Shown piece by piece: positions 26,184 through 43,559 of a stretch of 43,635 nucleotides of DNA. A program made the position numbers and the translations under genes. Numbering within the stretch: the first letter of the stretch is position 1; each line of letters opens with the position of its first letter. Origin of the DNA: Longimicrobiales bacterium (GTDB lineage Bacteria > Gemmatimonadota > Gemmatimonadetes > Longimicrobiales > RSA9); assembly GCA_035764935.1 (NCBI GenBank), contig DASTYK010000043.1, forward strand, positions 1 to 43,635, given 5' to 3'. The notes under the pieces were generated by a model that was not told where the DNA came from, made no database searches, and saw only the letters and a program-made list of their open reading frames with translations.

Positions 26184-26313
26184 CACGCAGAGATGCGGAG
26201 GAGCAGAGGCGCGGGGGAGCAGAGGCGCGGGGGAGCAGAGGCGCGGGGGAGCAGAGGCGCGGAGGAGCAGAGGCGCGGGGGAGCAGAGGCGCGGGGGAGC
26301 AGAGGCGCGGGGA
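26184..26313. repeat. 16-bp tandem minisatellite, seven copies
   Basis: Seven head-to-tail copies of AGCAGAGGCGCGGGGG run from 26202 to 26313 with changes only in the last bases of some copies. A degenerate first unit (26184-26201, containing CGCAGAGATGCGGAGG) links it to the dispersed CGGAGG-type repeats elsewhere in the window. The frames through it are open only because the unit contains no stop codon; I see no gene signal. Confidence 0.88.
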
Positions 26314-26465
26314 CCGGATGTGCAGGATTACGACTCGATTGTCGCCCGCACGCGAGCACCTCGCTGGTGCGAAGCCGGTCGCGCGATCGCTGCTCCCCGG
26401 TGCTGGCCACAGACGGCGTGATCGCGGCCAGCCTCGCACGGTCATCCTCCTGCGAAAATCTCAGT
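26314..26465. other. Non-coding spacer between two repeat arrays
   Basis: This stretch separates the 16-bp and 61-bp arrays. I see no gene, hairpin or repeat that stands out. Confidence 0.4.
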
Positions 26466-26770
26466 CAACGTTGCTCGGGTTCGATTCGAGCCGGATGCGT
26501 GCAACATTGCCTTTGAATATGACAGGCAACGTTGCTCGGGTTCGATCCGAGCCGGATGCGTGCAACGTTGCCTTTGAATATGACAGGCAACGTTGCTCGG
26601 GTTCGATCCGAGCCGTACGTGTGCAACGTTGCCTTTGATTATGGCAGGCAACGTTGCTCGGATTGGAATCGAGCCGTACGTGTGCAACGTTGCCTGCGAT
26701 GATGCCAGCTCACGTTGCTCCAGCCCGATCCGCCGCCAGCGCGTGCAATGCTGACTGCGATCCCACCAGA
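26466..26770. repeat. 61-bp tandem array of nested palindromes, five copies
   Basis: Units start at 26466, 26527, 26588, 26649 and 26710, each exactly 61 bases; the fifth is diverged. Each unit has a first palindrome GCAACGTTGC at its left border, an inner dyad of the type CTCGG-loop-CCGAG, a second GCAACGTTGC 36 bases later, and the linker CTTTGAATATGACAG. Perfect GCAACGTTGC copies begin at 26526, 26562, 26587, 26623, 26648 and 26684, alternating 36 and 25 bases apart. Linker and inner loop vary between units more than the palindromes do. There is no coding signal. The array lies between the OmpA terminator and the stop of the DUF4105 gene. Confidence 0.9.
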
Positions 26771-26834: not shown

Positions 26835-28182
26835 AATGCGAAGACGCAGCAACAATCGGACGAGCCTGCCGCTCACGCTCCCACAGCAGCAGCACCACGG
26901 CCAGCGCGATTTCGGCCGGCACGGTAGCGGCCAGGATTTCTCCGTTCTGCTGGAACAGCCCCGGCAGCACCTGTGCGATGACGCCGATGACCGCGAGCAG
27001 CGCACCGACGCCTGCTGCAATGGCCGCGGGTTGGCGCGCGCGGCGTGCGAGGAGCGCGGGCAGCAGGAGCACGGCCACGACCAGCCAGAGCGGGTTGACG
27101 GCGAACAGGTTCTCGTTGGCGAACGTCGTGGTGTGGTCGGTGAATGCCCAGAGTGAGCCGATGATCGTGCCCAGCACCCCGACGGCGAATGTCCAGAGGA
27201 AGGCGAGGGCGGCGAGGGCGATCCGGGCGGCTGTACTGCGCCCCGCGACATGGCCGAGTCCCAGGAACAGAACGGCGAACAGGACGCCGATGCCCAGGAA
27301 GATGCCCAGTCGCTCGGGTGGCGCCGTAGGCTCGGGCTCGCGCATGGCCTGGTGCCAGGTTTCCTGCGCCAGCACGAGCGGGCCGGTCGAGCCGTCGACG
27401 CGCTCGATCTCGATGCGGCTGACCGCATCGCGCAGCTCCATCGGGATGAATGCGGCTTCCCACTCGGTGAGCGGCACGTCGGTCGGCTGGCCGAGCGCGA
27501 GCATCAGGCCGGCATGAGGCGCGGGGTCGTGTGCGAGCAGGCGCAGCGAATGGGAGCGAAACGTTTCGCCTGTCGTGTCCGCCTCGAGCTGCCGGCGGAG
27601 CTGGCCGCCGAGCACGCGGTTCAGGGCGTCGCGCACGCGGGTGGAGCAGTTGTCGCGGAACGGGTCGTAGAGATACTCGGCGTTTGCGGGCTGTGCGTTC
27701 CACTCGAGGAAGCGCGCCATCTCGTACTTCTGGCCGGGTGTGAGTGCGAGCTCCTGCGCGACGACCTCGCGGTTGCGCAGCTCGTACTCGCGCAGCATCC
27801 GGGTCCCGTCGAGCGGCGCCATCCAGTAGAGCATGCGCCCCTGCAGCAACCTTCCGACGAAGCCGGGTTGATCGAAGGAGAACATGCCGTAGTTGTACGC
27901 GACGTCGATGCCGCGCGTGCTGTCGCGCAGCAGGATCGCGTTGTGGCCGAACCGCTCCCATACCGCGTCGCCGGGTCCCATTGTGAGCAGGTAGACGCGC
28001 AGCGAGCCCCAGGCGTCCAGCCGTGCGCGCGGATCATCGGCAGGTGTGCTGTCCGGTGCGGGCACGCCGGCCTCCGCGGCCTCGCCGGTATCGCGCACCT
28101 GCGCCGCAGCGGGCGCGACGGCCGCAATGAGCACCGCCGCCGTGCCTGCGAACATCCACTTCATCATGCCGGCTCCGCTCAT
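26830..28182 (-). CDS. DUF4105 (Lnb N-terminal periplasmic) membrane protein
   Basis: The 450-aa protein has a signal peptide (ending APAAAQ, about residue 28), then a DUF4105 domain with the conserved blocks VYLLTMGPGDAVWERFGHNAI and YDPFRDNCSTRVRDALN. The His and Cys of these blocks recall a papain/NlpC-like pair. The last third holds about five membrane helices (for example IFLGIGVLFAVLFLGLGHVAG). DUF4105 proteins are envelope proteins of unknown activity. I start at ATG 28182 because it overlaps the M28 stop codon (ATGA); ATG 28167, with GGAG upstream, is an equal alternative. It is the distal gene of an M28-DUF4105 pair. Confidence 0.83.
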   Translation of the reverse strand: MSGAGMMKWMFAGTAAVLIAAVAPAAAQVRDTGEAAEAGVPAPDSTPADDPRARLDAWGSLRVYLLTMGPGDAVWERFGHNAILLRDSTRGIDVAYNYGMFSFDQPGFVGRLLQGRMLYWMAPLDGTRMLREYELRNREVVAQELALTPGQKYEMARFLEWNAQPANAEYLYDPFRDNCSTRVRDALNRVLGGQLRRQLEADTTGETFRSHSLRLLAHDPAPHAGLMLALGQPTDVPLTEWEAAFIPMELRDAVSRIEIERVDGSTGPLVLAQETWHQAMREPEPTAPPERLGIFLGIGVLFAVLFLGLGHVAGRSTAARIALAALAFLWTFAVGVLGTIIGSLWAFTDHTTTFANENLFAVNPLWLVVAVLLLPALLARRARQPAAIAAGVGALLAVIGVIAQVLPGLFQQNGEILAATVPAEIALAVVLLLWERERQARPIVAASSHF

Positions 28183-29555
28183 TCCTGCGGTGCCCGCGGC
28201 AGCGGCTCCGGCAGCTCGGCCACGGCGTACGCCATCACCGCGAGCGACGCGACGCACTCCAGGAACTCGCGCATGTCGAGCTTGTCGATGGTGTCGGCAT
28301 CGGTGTGGTGGTACCAGAAATAGCGGCTGCCTTCGACGTCGAGTCCCATGCCGGGCACGCCGAGCCGCATGATCGGACCGATGTCGGCGCCGCCGCCGCC
28401 GCGCGTGATCTCGCCCGCGTCGATGCGTTCCAGCAGCGACCCGATCGCGGATACGATCGCGAACGCCTCGTCGCTGCCCGTGAAGCCGTACCCGAGCGGC
28501 TTGAACACGCCAGCGTCGGACTCGATCGCGAGCACGTGGTTGTCGAGCTCGTCGCGGTGCGCGTCGCGGTATGCGTTTCCGCCGCGCAGCCCGTTCTCCT
28601 CGTTGGTCCAGCCGACCACGCGCACCGTGCGACGGGGACGCAGCCCCAGCTCCTTCATGAGGCGCACCGCTTCCCATGCGGCCACGACGCCGCCCGCATC
28701 ATCCATTGCGCCCTGCCCGACATCCCACGAGTCCGTATGTCCGCCGAGCACGACGATCTCGTCCGGGAACTCGCGACCGCGCAGCTCGGCAATCACGTTC
28801 TTCGACTCCGCGTCCGGCAGCGTCTGCGCGCTCATCCTGAGTGTCACGACCACGCGCTCACCCTGGTCCTGCAGCCGGTGCAGCAGCATCGCGTCCTCGA
28901 CCGTGATGGCCGCGTGCGGGATGCGCGGTACGTCGTCGCTGTATGCCATGCCGCCCGTGTGCGGCGTCTTCATCGAGAATGGCGTGACGGACCGGATCAG
29001 CGACGCGACCGCGCCCACGCGCGCCGCGGCGATCGCACCCTGCGAGCGGTAGCGTACCGTTTCGCCGTACGTCGTGAACGGGGCGTCGAACAGGACGATC
29101 CTGCCGCGTGCGTCGGCAGCGCGCTGCTCCAGCTCGTCGAAGCTGCTCACGACCAGCACTTCGGCGGTGATCCCCTCGGGTGGCGTCGCAACACTGCCGC
29201 CGAGCCCCAGCATCGGCAGCTCCTGCTGCCGCGGCTCGATCAGCGCTGCCGATTCTTCGCCCCGAACCCAGTGCGGCACCATGACCGGCTCGCCGCGTAC
29301 GTTCTCGAGTCCGTCCTGCTCCATCTCCGCGAGGATCCAGTCATGGGCGGCCTCGAGCGAGGCGCTGCCGCTGAACCGGCTGCCGAAGCGGTCGACGAAG
29401 TGCGTCAGCCGCTCCCATGCCGCGGTGTCGGCCAGTGCGGCATCGATGAGCCGATCGGCTGCCGGCCGGAGTGCGGCGACCGCATCCTGTTGTGCAGTGG
29501 CGGGCACAGCCAGGAACGCGAGTGCGCCGGCAGCAAGAAGGACAGGACGTCGCAT
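28179..29555 (-). CDS. M28-family zinc metallopeptidase (carboxypeptidase Q-like)
   Basis: The 458-aa product has a signal peptide (MRRPVLLAAGALAFLAVPATAQ), a PA-like insertion (about 120-235) and an M28 catalytic domain. The two-zinc ligands are visible: His273 in GGHTDSW, bridging Asp285 in MDDAGG, general base Glu319 and ligand Glu320 in TNEENG, Asp347 in ESDAG and a His in YHHTDADT (416-417). It should be an active secreted or periplasmic amino- or dipeptidase like plasma glutamate carboxypeptidase. It is coupled to the DUF4105 gene through an ATGA overlap. A 9-bp hairpin (29579-29600) precedes its start at 29555. Confidence 0.92.
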   Translation of the reverse strand: MRRPVLLAAGALAFLAVPATAQQDAVAALRPAADRLIDAALADTAAWERLTHFVDRFGSRFSGSASLEAAHDWILAEMEQDGLENVRGEPVMVPHWVRGEESAALIEPRQQELPMLGLGGSVATPPEGITAEVLVVSSFDELEQRAADARGRIVLFDAPFTTYGETVRYRSQGAIAAARVGAVASLIRSVTPFSMKTPHTGGMAYSDDVPRIPHAAITVEDAMLLHRLQDQGERVVVTLRMSAQTLPDAESKNVIAELRGREFPDEIVVLGGHTDSWDVGQGAMDDAGGVVAAWEAVRLMKELGLRPRRTVRVVGWTNEENGLRGGNAYRDAHRDELDNHVLAIESDAGVFKPLGYGFTGSDEAFAIVSAIGSLLERIDAGEITRGGGGADIGPIMRLGVPGMGLDVEGSRYFWYHHTDADTIDKLDMREFLECVASLAVMAYAVAELPEPLPRAPQE

Positions 29556-29681: not shown

Positions 29682-30125
29682 CTACTTCTGTGACAGATTG
29701 TGCACGTACGCGGCGACGGCCCGGACCTCGTCTGCCGAAAGTCTTGCCCCGCCCATGGGGGGCATCGGAGCCGGGTGCTTCTTCGGCTTCGCGACGCCCG
29801 CCTTGATGATCGACTCGATGCCGGCCAGCGAGCCGTCCGTGTTCAGCCACTCGGCGTCGGTGAGATCCGGCGCGAGCGGCGTCCCCTTCGCGTTCACGCC
29901 GTGGCAGGTGTAGCAGTTCCCTTTGCCGGTGAAGATCTTCTGCCCCTGCTGCGGATCCTGCACCGCCACGGGCGCGGCCATGGCCACACCGCCGGGCATG
30001 ATCATGTCAGCCGGTGCATGCGCCGCGGCCACGGTGTCGGGAGCGTACTGCGAGCAGGCAAGCGTCGCCGCAAACAGAACGGCGACGCCGGCCAGCATCC
30101 ATTCCCATGTCGCTGTGTACTTCAT
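29682..30125 (-). CDS. Small monohaem c-type cytochrome, probable lipoprotein
   Basis: The 147-aa protein has an N-terminal hydrophobic segment ending TLAC (possible lipobox Cys24), an Ala/Pro-rich linker, and a class I cytochrome c domain with haem motif CYTCH (71-75) and likely sixth ligand Met121 or Met124 in PAPMPPMGG. The C-terminal helix DEVRAVAAYVHNL is typical of cytochromes c551/c6 and cbb3 subunit III-like domains. It would carry electrons in the periplasm, tethered to a membrane. It begins eight bases after the stop of the cytochrome-porin gene, so the two are co-transcribed and probably exchange electrons. Confidence 0.88.
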   Translation of the reverse strand: MKYTATWEWMLAGVAVLFAATLACSQYAPDTVAAAHAPADMIMPGGVAMAAPVAVQDPQQGQKIFTGKGNCYTCHGVNAKGTPLAPDLTDAEWLNTDGSLAGIESIIKAGVAKPKKHPAPMPPMGGARLSADEVRAVAAYVHNLSQK

Positions 30126-30133
30126 GGCAGTTC

Positions 30134-31342
30134 TCAGAACGCAGACACGACGCCGAGCGTGATGCGGGCACGCTCACGCTCGAAATCCCACTGCGTCTCT
30201 CCGAGGATTCGTACATTGCGCGCGAGCAGCCACGTCGCCCCCAGCGCCGCGGTCTCGTAGCGGTCCAGCAGTCCGTCCTCGCCCTGGCGCACGGTAAAGA
30301 TGGGGTCGTCCGCCCAGACGCGATTGTACAGGCCCATCAGGAACCAGCGGCCGGTGGGGCCCTGGGGTCCCCAGACCAGCTCGCCCAGCACTGCGTCGAC
30401 CGTCGTCTCCTCGTCACTGTCGAGGAAGAAGGGGCGCGTGTCCGTGCGTCGCAGGAACTGGCCGTTCAGCTCGAGCTGCCCGGCCGTGAGCGTCAGGTCC
30501 GGTCCCCACACGACGACCTCGTTGGACAGGTCGCCACGATCCTCGGGGCCGTACAGCGCATACCCGCCGACGCGCAGCGGCCCGAGCGACTGCGACACGC
30601 GGCCGGCAACGGTCTTGAACGCATCTCCGTCGAAGAGCCGGTTCTCGCCCGCTTCGTCGATGCCGCGCCCGTTGACGAGCTGCAGCGTGACGTCACCGCC
30701 TTCCCAGGGGGAAGCGAACGCCATCAGGCCGCGGTCGTACGTCAGGTCGAGCCGCGTATCGCCGACGCGGACGCGGTACACGTTGTAGTCCTCGTACTCC
30801 AGGCGCAGCTCGCGCTTGAACAGCGGGTCCGACAGCTGGAACTGCCCGACGATCAGTGCCACGCCGCTGCCGAACAGGTCGGTGAACTGGATGTAGGCAT
30901 CCTCGAGTCCCGCGACTGCACCGCGCTCCGACATGAAGAAGTACAGGTAGTAGCTCACGTTCTTCGCGATCGGCATTCCGGACAGCAGCTTGACGCCGTA
31001 CGGCGTCTGGAAATCGGCGCGGGCGTCCAGGTCGTCACTGCCGGTCACCACCTGCGCGAACAGGTCGAGCCGCACTGCCAGCGGCAGGCTCTCCGCCAGC
31101 ACGAGCAGCGGGTCCCCCGTGTTGATCGTGTCGGTCGGCACCTCGCCGGGCGCCATCTGGAAGCCGTTGCCCGCGAACGCCTCGCCGAACTCCGTGAGTC
31201 GCGGTGCGGGCGCGTGGCAGAGCGAGCAGGTTACGCGGTAGCGTCGCGCGAACGCCGGGATCGCCGCTGCGGGCGCTACCGAGGTGAACAGGAGTGCGGC
31301 GGCGCCGCTCAGAACGACCAGGCCCTTCAGGCCGGCACGCAT
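30134..31342 (-). CDS. Cyc2-like fused cytochrome-porin
   Basis: The 402-aa protein has a signal peptide (about 1-27, ending APAAA), then the N-terminal haem segment IPAFARRYRVTCSLCHAPAP (28-47; haem motif C39-x-x-C42-H43) followed by LTEFGEAFAGNGFQM. The rest consists of alternating beta strands ending in VVSAF, the profile of an outer-membrane porin. A PxFAR...CxxCH...P.L..FG segment in front of a 16-strand porin is the design of Cyc2, the outer-membrane Fe(II) oxidase, and of a wider set of uncharacterised relatives. ATG 31342 has GAGGAGG four to five bases upstream. The next gene encodes a cytochrome c. The electron donor or acceptor is unknown. Confidence 0.8.
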   Translation of the reverse strand: MRAGLKGLVVLSGAAALLFTSVAPAAAIPAFARRYRVTCSLCHAPAPRLTEFGEAFAGNGFQMAPGEVPTDTINTGDPLLVLAESLPLAVRLDLFAQVVTGSDDLDARADFQTPYGVKLLSGMPIAKNVSYYLYFFMSERGAVAGLEDAYIQFTDLFGSGVALIVGQFQLSDPLFKRELRLEYEDYNVYRVRVGDTRLDLTYDRGLMAFASPWEGGDVTLQLVNGRGIDEAGENRLFDGDAFKTVAGRVSQSLGPLRVGGYALYGPEDRGDLSNEVVVWGPDLTLTAGQLELNGQFLRRTDTRPFFLDSDEETTVDAVLGELVWGPQGPTGRWFLMGLYNRVWADDPIFTVRQGEDGLLDRYETAALGATWLLARNVRILGETQWDFERERARITLGVVSAF

Positions 31343-31350
31343 GGGCCCTC

Positions 31351-31381
31351 CTCGCATGAGAATCCACCCTCAACATGCGAG
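31351..31381 (-). promoter_or_regulatory. Inverted repeat over the ribosome site of the cytochrome-porin gene
   Basis: CTCGCATG (31351-31358) and CATGCGAG (31374-31381) form a perfect 8-bp dyad with a 15-base spacer, 9-39 bases upstream of the ATG at 31342. The proximal arm contains the first part of the GAGGAGG ribosome site. It could be an operator or an RNA hairpin that limits ribosome access. Confidence 0.45.
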
Positions 31382-31433: not shown

Positions 31434-32297
31434 CTACCGCCGCACGGCTCCCCCCTGTTCGTGCAGATGCTCGCGGAAGAACTGGATCGTCAGCGGCCAG
31501 GCCTGCCGCGTCGCCTCCGCGTTGGCGCCCTCCTGGCCGCTCTGCTGACGCAGGAAACCGTGCCCGGCACCATCGAAGACGTGCACGTCGTAGGTCTTCC
31601 CCAGCGCCTCCATCGTCCGCTGCGCCGCGGGGATCGTCGCGTTCACGCGCTCATCATTGCCGCCATACAGCCCGAGCACGGGAGCCTCGATCCGGCCCAG
31701 GAGTGTCGTGTCCGGCGACGAGCCGTAATACACGACCGCCGCATCGACCTCGTCCGACTCGACGGCATGCCGGAACGACGTCGAGCCGCCCCAGCAGTAG
31801 CCGACGATGCCGTAGCGGTCGGTCGCCGCCGGCAGTGCCATGCCCCACTCTGCGACTGCCGAGAGCTGCCGGTGGACGTCGGCCGCATCCAGCGTGCGGA
31901 TCTGCTGAGTCGCCTGCTGCCGGTCCGGCTCGCCGTTGCTGTCCACCGGCACGCTCTTCATCGTGAGCAGGTCGGGCGCGATCGCGATGAAGCCGTCGGC
32001 GGCCAGCTGGTCGGCAACCGCACGCACCCAGTTCGTCAAACCATAGATCTCGTGCACGACCAGGACGACCGGAGCCGGCTCCGACGTCTCCGGGTAGACG
32101 ACCCAGGCACGCACCGAGTCGTTCTCACTGGTCCGTACGACGCTCCACTCCGCGTGTCGCGGCGAGCTGTTCAGCCGGTCCAGCGCCGACTCCGCATCCG
32201 GAGGCAGCGGATCCTGTGCGGCGGTGGGCGTCGTGCTCGCGCAGCCGCAGGCAAGCAGCAGGACAAGCGGGCCAATGAGACGATCGCGGACAGGCAT
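31434..32297 (-). CDS. Dienelactone hydrolase-family lipoprotein
   Basis: The 287-aa product has a lipoprotein-type signal (MPVRDRLIGPLVLLLACGC, Cys17 or Cys19). The alpha/beta hydrolase that follows has the dienelactone hydrolase triad: nucleophile Cys168 in GYCWGG, Asp215 in GGNDERV and His246 in GAGHGF. The early VVLVVHEIYGLTNW block is also a family hallmark. Classical enzymes are cytosolic and open lactone rings in aromatic degradation; exported versions like this are common and uncharacterised. AGGAGG lies five bases upstream of ATG 32297. It is divergent from the dipeptidase gene at 32471. Confidence 0.88.
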   Translation of the reverse strand: MPVRDRLIGPLVLLLACGCASTTPTAAQDPLPPDAESALDRLNSSPRHAEWSVVRTSENDSVRAWVVYPETSEPAPVVLVVHEIYGLTNWVRAVADQLAADGFIAIAPDLLTMKSVPVDSNGEPDRQQATQQIRTLDAADVHRQLSAVAEWGMALPAATDRYGIVGYCWGGSTSFRHAVESDEVDAAVVYYGSSPDTTLLGRIEAPVLGLYGGNDERVNATIPAAQRTMEALGKTYDVHVFDGAGHGFLRQQSGQEGANAEATRQAWPLTIQFFREHLHEQGGAVRR

Positions 32298-32470
32298 GGG
32301 GGCCTCCTGGGGGATCCGGCCAGCGGTGCGCGGGCCGCGCGACGTTCTCAGCGTAGACGGACGGGTGAGCCGCCGCAACGCCGGGACACTGTCGTTGTTG
32401 CGACCGGCCGCGCGACGGGGCAATATGCGGACCTGATTCCCTCACACACCTCGAAACGCCGGACGGACCG

Positions 32471-43314: not shown

Positions 43315-43431
43315 TTACTGCTTGAACTGCGGGTTATGGGCGGTGGGTGGTGGGAGACGCGCGCTGTTGCGCGCTTGGGTGGCGGACACTTCGGGATGAG
43401 TGGCGGGTGGTGGGCGGTGGGGTTGTCGCCC

Positions 43432-43559
43432 CATGGAGTCGCCCTCGCCCCGTGGAGTCGCCCTCGCCCCGCGGAGTCGCCCTCGCCCCGTGGAGTCGCC
43501 CTCGCCCCGTGGAGTCGCCCGCGCCCCGCGGAGTCGCCCTCGCCCCGTGGAGGCGCCCG
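43432..43559. repeat. 19-bp tandem minisatellite, six and a half copies
   Basis: Copies of CGTGGAGTCGCCCTCGCCC start at 43432, 43451, 43470, 43489, 43508 and 43527, with a partial seventh from 43546. Variation is limited mainly to the second and third base of the unit (GT, GC or AT). Confidence 0.9.

Follow-up and report, generated by a model that had tools for sequence, protein, structure and literature searches.

A divergent Cyc2-type cytochrome-porin subfamily in Gemmatimonadota with a charged L3 loop, a recurrent monohaem cytochrome partner and a putative role as an outer-membrane electron conduit

In metagenomic work, Cyc2 serves as a genetic marker of iron oxidation. According to Keffer et al., Cyc2-like cytochromes carry the motifs AXPXFAR[Q/K][T/Y], CXXCH and PXL, are at least 365 amino acids long and include a porin; OprP and OprO were the templates for Mariprofundus Cyc2, and in the published model the haem is placed at the periplasmic opening and the pore has to admit Fe2+ (PMC8406198). 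Cyc2 homologues of cluster 3 have been described from Gemmatimonadota (PMC9671151), others appear in further reports (PMC9769843, PMC10367259, PMC13055281), and one Gemmatimonadetes MtrCAB is known (PMC8805035). A sequence-only reading of the locus studied here had presented the lineage as one not known for such conduits. Cyc2 homologues of Gemmatimonadota are already published, so that statement is not supported, and in our search 49 of 395 Gemmatimonadota genomes had a protein of the classical-type Cyc2 clade.

The window, the whole stretch of 43,635 nucleotides that was analysed, comes from a Longimicrobiales bacterium (contig DASTYK010000043.1). Its minus strand encodes a fused Cyc2-type cytochrome-porin (30134..31342, 402 aa from the second ATG; an alternative ATG at 31357, five codons upstream, would give 407 aa) and, after a gap of 8 bases, a monohaem cytochrome c of 147 aa with an N-terminal export signal and a CcoP-like sequence (29682..30125, minus strand), which we call the partner. 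The flanking genes on the same strand, one dienelactone-hydrolase-like (31434-32423) and the other for an M28 peptidase (28179-29555), are functionally unrelated to the pair. Codon use of the cytochrome-porin gene is like that of its neighbours (GC3 0.89 versus 0.83-0.91), and a protein from a Gemmatimonadaceae MAG is 54% identical to its product. With Cyc2 of clusters 1-3 (McAllister 2020, Keffer 2021) the protein shares a signal peptide, an AXPXFAR-type motif, one CXXCH, PXL, a length above 365 aa, a 16-stranded OprP/OprO-type barrel and a downstream cytochrome c gene; it differs in having Arg for the consensus Q/K and in lying in a separate clade on a long branch. Elsewhere in the window, a tandem array at 26462-26720 consists of a 61-bp unit with an inverted repeat (GGCAACGTTGC...GCAACGTTGCC). 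Within this genome, 62 matches to the unit are spread over about 20 contigs, and it therefore represents a dispersed palindromic intergenic repeat family. Two short tandem arrays were also observed, one at 26187-26312 (16-bp unit GCAGAGGCGCGGGGGA, 7.9 copies) and one at 43426-43558 (19-bp unit, 7 copies).

Homologues were sought in 395 Gemmatimonadota genomes and in plasmids. We refer to close homologues of the 402-aa protein, recovered from these genomes by profile search at E <1e-40, as window type; they are present in 46 of the 395 genomes. Such a patchy spread would be expected of a degenerate, functionless Cyc2 relic, but the reading frame is intact, conservation across the 41 aligned rows is strong and codon use resembles that of the neighbours. 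Conservation has already largely refuted this reading, which we regard as extremely improbable.

The signal peptide (MRAGLKGLVVLSGAAALLFTSVAPAAA, 31262..31342, minus strand) was read from the sequence by its basic n-region, hydrophobic core and AxA motif, and cleavage is expected before IPAFAR. It is followed by the haem segment (IPAFARRYRVTCSLCHAPAPRLTEFGEAFAGNGFQM, residues 28-63, 31154..31261, minus strand), defined by its match to the Cyc2 motif and by conservation, which includes the haem c attachment site CSLCH (C39, C42 and H43; 31214..31228, minus strand; TGC TCG CTC TGC CAC). Residues 27-52 read A-IPAFARRY-RVT-CSLCH-APA-PRL-TEF. AIPAFARRY fits AXPXFAR[Q/K][T/Y] apart from one mismatch, R34 for Q/K, and a strict pattern filter would consequently discard the protein. 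Across the 41 homologues, however, residue 34 is Lys in 32, Arg in 8 and Leu in 1, so that the window-type family conforms to the pattern. Five residues separate FAR from C39, and the single CXXCH is followed 4 residues on by PXL (CSLCH, APA-PRL), as described for Cyc2. C39, C42 and H43 occur in 41/41 homologues, P47 and L49 in 95% or more, and mean column identity over residues 27-63 is 78%. AlphaFold confidence in the haem region was poor (pLDDT <50 at residues 20-45). No Met or His besides H43 is conserved among the 41 aligned window-type homologues, and since H43 alone is invariant among these residues the distal haem ligand is not evident. The family does conserve the lysines K118 (41/41) and K176 (40/41).

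Structure prediction with AlphaFold (model m2eb206b0a3ec, run with 29 homologues; pTM 0.76, mean pLDDT 75.6) combined with Foldseek placed a 16-stranded beta-barrel at residues 89-401 (30140..31078, minus strand); the membrane strands were counted from the DSSP assignment, with the short strand 109-112 counted into the second. In the Foldseek comparison with the PDB, the top ranks were occupied by Omp32 (E 8.9e-13), OprP (E 1.8e-12) and other 16-strand porins (E about 1e-12 to 1e-10), while OprO stood at rank 12 (E 9.1e-11). The length of 402 aa and this OprP/OprO-like barrel agree with the Cyc2 description. Omp32, OprP and OprO have the same fold and the same position of L3, but they are without the haem segment. 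Sequence searches of the porin part alone against Pfam, NCBIfam and the PDB gave no match, and Porin_4 was matched weakly by 4 of the 29 homologues. The sequence-only reading had proposed a protein joining an N-terminal CxxCH to a porin-like barrel, after the design of the Cyc2 iron oxidases and with 16 strands to be expected in a structure model; the open reading frame, the CSLCH site at its proper spacing, the predicted fold and the profile matches to Cyc2-like proteins given below all agree with it. MtrAB, MtoAB and PioAB likewise combine an outer-membrane barrel with c haem for transmembrane electron transfer, but they use a 26-strand barrel and a separate decahaem protein in place of 16 strands and one fused haem. 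An MtrAB/PioAB conduit was rejected for the locus on the strand and haem counts and because no MtrB/PioB-type conduit (PF11854) was found in the genome.

L3 is the constriction loop of 16-strand porins. In the 402-aa protein the corresponding block (GQFQLSDPLFKRELRLEYEDYNVYRVRVG, residues 166-194, 30761..30847, minus strand) lies between strands 5 and 6 and has a mean column identity of 0.85 over the 41 rows; its best 15-residue stretch reaches 0.95, the highest value in the protein. The window-type loop is charged and near-invariant (GQFQxSDPxFKRExRL), with K176, R177, E178, R180 and D185 as conserved charged residues. In contrast, classical-type proteins conserve a different sequence at this site (GLTLNNNPTVQDIWN), with the pattern GxTLNNNPTVQDxWN.

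The partner has one haem c attachment site (CYTCH, 29901..29915, minus strand) and scored 51.1 bits for PF00034 (Cytochrom_C) against a gathering score of 21.3, and 44.3 bits for PF13442. The best PDB matches of its profile were to the CcoP subunit of cbb3 oxidase (6xkw, E 1.3e-22). On these matches it is classed as a CcoP-like monohaem class I cytochrome c, and the invariant M121 is likely its distal haem ligand. Identification as a CcoP subunit proper was rejected (TIGR00782, 46.4 bits versus a cut-off of 179.95), as was identification as Cyc1, the dihaem c4 partner of Cyc2 in A. ferrooxidans, the partner having one CXXCH and not two. The retention of the haem segment in 41 homologues, the 16-strand model and the partner score above the Cytochrom_C gathering score indicate that the gene pair is not a product of chance.

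Linkage of the two genes recurs. Of 41 usable loci, 16 have a CcoP-like cytochrome of 114-163 aa on the 3' side of the porin gene; the gaps range from -44 to +215 bases, and some of the genes overlap. Among 165 other long ORFs from these neighbourhoods, none has such a cytochrome after it, a rough background in that some of these ORFs are not genes. The monohaem cytochrome c gene eight bases downstream, which the earlier reading had pointed out, is thus present as described and is a repeated feature of the family. In 25 of the 41 loci the partner is missing next door, some of these absences being possibly contig ends since many of the genomes are draft assemblies. At least 11 changes in partner presence are needed on the tree, which makes the linkage recurrent but labile. 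Two paralogues of the partner (48% and 59% identity) lie elsewhere in the genome, and their neighbours were uninformative. Apart from one genus pair, eight neighbourhoods gave no convincing third gene in common, and several of the matches between them were discarded as antisense shadows of the porin gene.

The frequent lack of an adjoining partner speaks for the possibility that the protein is a solute porin in which the haem serves as redox gate or sensor (of O2, NO or redox state) and not as a respiratory conduit. A charged L3 as the best-conserved part fits pore selectivity, and the lack of an evident distal ligand leaves room for a gas ligand. The cytochrome c neighbour nevertheless recurs, sometimes with overlap, and the protein is homologous to electron-transfer porins; we consider a gate or sensor improbable.

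We favour the view that the pair probably forms an outer-membrane one-haem conduit, through which electrons from a soluble donor would enter by way of the pore and pass on to the partner. This proposal follows the published Cyc2 model. At the periplasmic side of the 16-stranded porin, the N-terminal segment would hold a single covalent haem c, and a small soluble electron donor would enter the pore from outside. The conserved charged L3 residues (K176, R177, E178, R180 and D185) may steer this donor through the constriction, and it would then reduce the porin haem. The electron would move on to the partner in the periplasm and from there to a haem-copper oxidase. Four strong matches to haem-copper oxidases were found in the genome. 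We infer that haem is loaded, that the protein lies in the outer membrane, and that electrons flow inward, reach the partner and are used by an oxidase. The earlier suggestion of extracellular electron uptake or release stands insofar as the Cyc2-type design, the porin fold and the recurrent partner make a conduit plausible. A one-haem conduit is in principle reversible, and a bc1-type complex could reduce the partner, so the pair might instead use periplasmic electrons to reduce an extracellular or pore-entering acceptor such as an Fe(III) chelate or a quinone. Minerals, however, would be out of reach for one haem located at the periplasmic mouth, the genome yielded no MtrB-type conduit, and the characterised relatives are oxidases (PMC8406198). 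Outward flow is accordingly given little credence here.

The conduit that we favour is related to, and distinct from, classical Cyc2. A second Gemmatimonadota group shares the N-terminus but has another barrel sequence, and it includes the classical type. In the tree, where the reference is a classical-type clade of plasmid and Gemmatimonadota proteins only, a 100/100 branch has five members of this group on one side, together with six Cyc2-like proteins encoded on Proteobacterial plasmids, one of them from Acidithiobacillus ferrooxidans. The branch separating this clade measures 3.61 changes per column. Window-type proteins form one group with moderate support (83/78), and fine placement is unsafe because of long branches elsewhere in the tree. 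Profile-profile comparison matched the window type to a mainly Proteobacterial set of classical Cyc2-like proteins (E 1.7e-14) and to the Gemmatimonadota set (E 7.1e-16 over 340 columns), which makes the homology of the two types clear at the profile level. A single pairwise comparison with a Caballeronia Cyc2-like protein gave E 7e-8 over 48 residues. A classical-clade protein modelled with the same pipeline showed the same layout of 16 strands, N-terminal helix and L3. Searching the PDB with a profile of classical Cyc2-like proteins gave no match, and there was therefore no solved Cyc2 structure for comparison. The two types occur together in 3 genomes versus 5.7 by chance (P(<=3) 0.145), so that they are neither linked nor mutually exclusive. 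From its sequence, the 402-aa protein is assigned to a divergent Cyc2-type subfamily and not to classical Cyc2, and this subfamily may belong within the published cluster 3.

Several related loci were seen during these searches. Classical-type proteins have an IPSFSRQTxLxCSACH-like motif in other Gemmatimonadota genomes (for example loci L010, L091, L094, L095 and L097) and are sometimes encoded as tandem pairs (genomes G130, G194, G278 and G322). L089:1437-2771 and L092:1423-2790 represent a further divergent cytochrome-porin branch, and each is followed within 15 bases by a gene for another type of c-type cytochrome, 280 aa long.

The 402-aa protein could be a working Fe(II) oxidase, as Cyc2 is in Mariprofundus and Acidithiobacillus, and support iron oxidation in a Gemmatimonadota bacterium that lives heterotrophically or mixotrophically; this would be an iron-specific form of the conduit and is compatible with it. 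The Cyc2-like signature motif, the fold, the cytochrome neighbour and the oxidases in the genome agree with such a role. Classical-type proteins, however, keep K61 (22/22) and M95 (95%), and both are missing from the window type, whose distal haem ligand may on this evidence differ from the classical one. The window type also has its own charged L3 instead of NNNPTVQDxWN and lies in a distant clade, and its position on a long branch means that Fe(II) oxidation cannot simply be transferred to it. RuBisCO was not found in the genome, which thus gives no pointer to lithoautotrophy by that route. Cluster 3 is the cluster of most uncertain function, and verification outside cluster 1 is called for (PMC8406198). 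The changed L3, the missing Lys and Met, the lack of RuBisCO and the uncertain function of Cyc2 outside cluster 1 mean that Fe(II) should not be assumed. We regard a working Fe(II) oxidase as a tentative possibility, somewhat against the balance of the evidence, and Fe(II) itself as the likeliest single donor but a candidate only, held with less than even confidence. It is also conceivable, if on the doubtful side, that the window type is a separate functional class of Gemmatimonadota cytochrome-porin, with a charged L3 and without the classical Lys and Met, which takes electrons from a soluble donor that is not Fe(II). That donor could, as a similarly speculative suggestion, be an organic redox compound or an anionic one.

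The gene order of the window is shared with plasmid-borne relatives. In Caballeronia, Ideonella, Methylocystis, Polymorphobacter and A. ferrooxidans, plasmid genes likewise place a porin-cytochrome before a c-type cytochrome, and of six plasmid Cyc2-like genes that were inspected, five precede such a gene. Their cytochromes are other and mostly longer ones, whereas the window-type partners are CcoP-like monohaem c proteins of 114-163 aa. A tblastn search of plasmids with the 402-aa protein found no Cyc2-like gene at E 0.01, while a Gemmatimonadota classical-type query gave nine matches. On the A. ferrooxidans YQ-N3 plasmid CP084173.1, the Cyc2-like gene at 49686-51053 (L068) is annotated as 'hypothetical protein' and adjoins transposase and c-type cytochrome genes; a match on an Acidiphilium cryptum plasmid had an equal score.

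Among open papers we found no published account of the L3 signature or of the CcoP-like partner of the window type. What is new here is the subfamily, its L3 signature and its recurrent CcoP-like partner. If it is true that a large subfamily passing the motif and fold tests for Cyc2 differs in L3 and in its candidate haem ligands, the marker may have led to wrong claims of iron oxidation in Gemmatimonadota; alternatively, pores of the Cyc2 type may act on donors that are not iron. Both the linked cytochrome and the conserved block in L3 offer direct, testable handles on this question.
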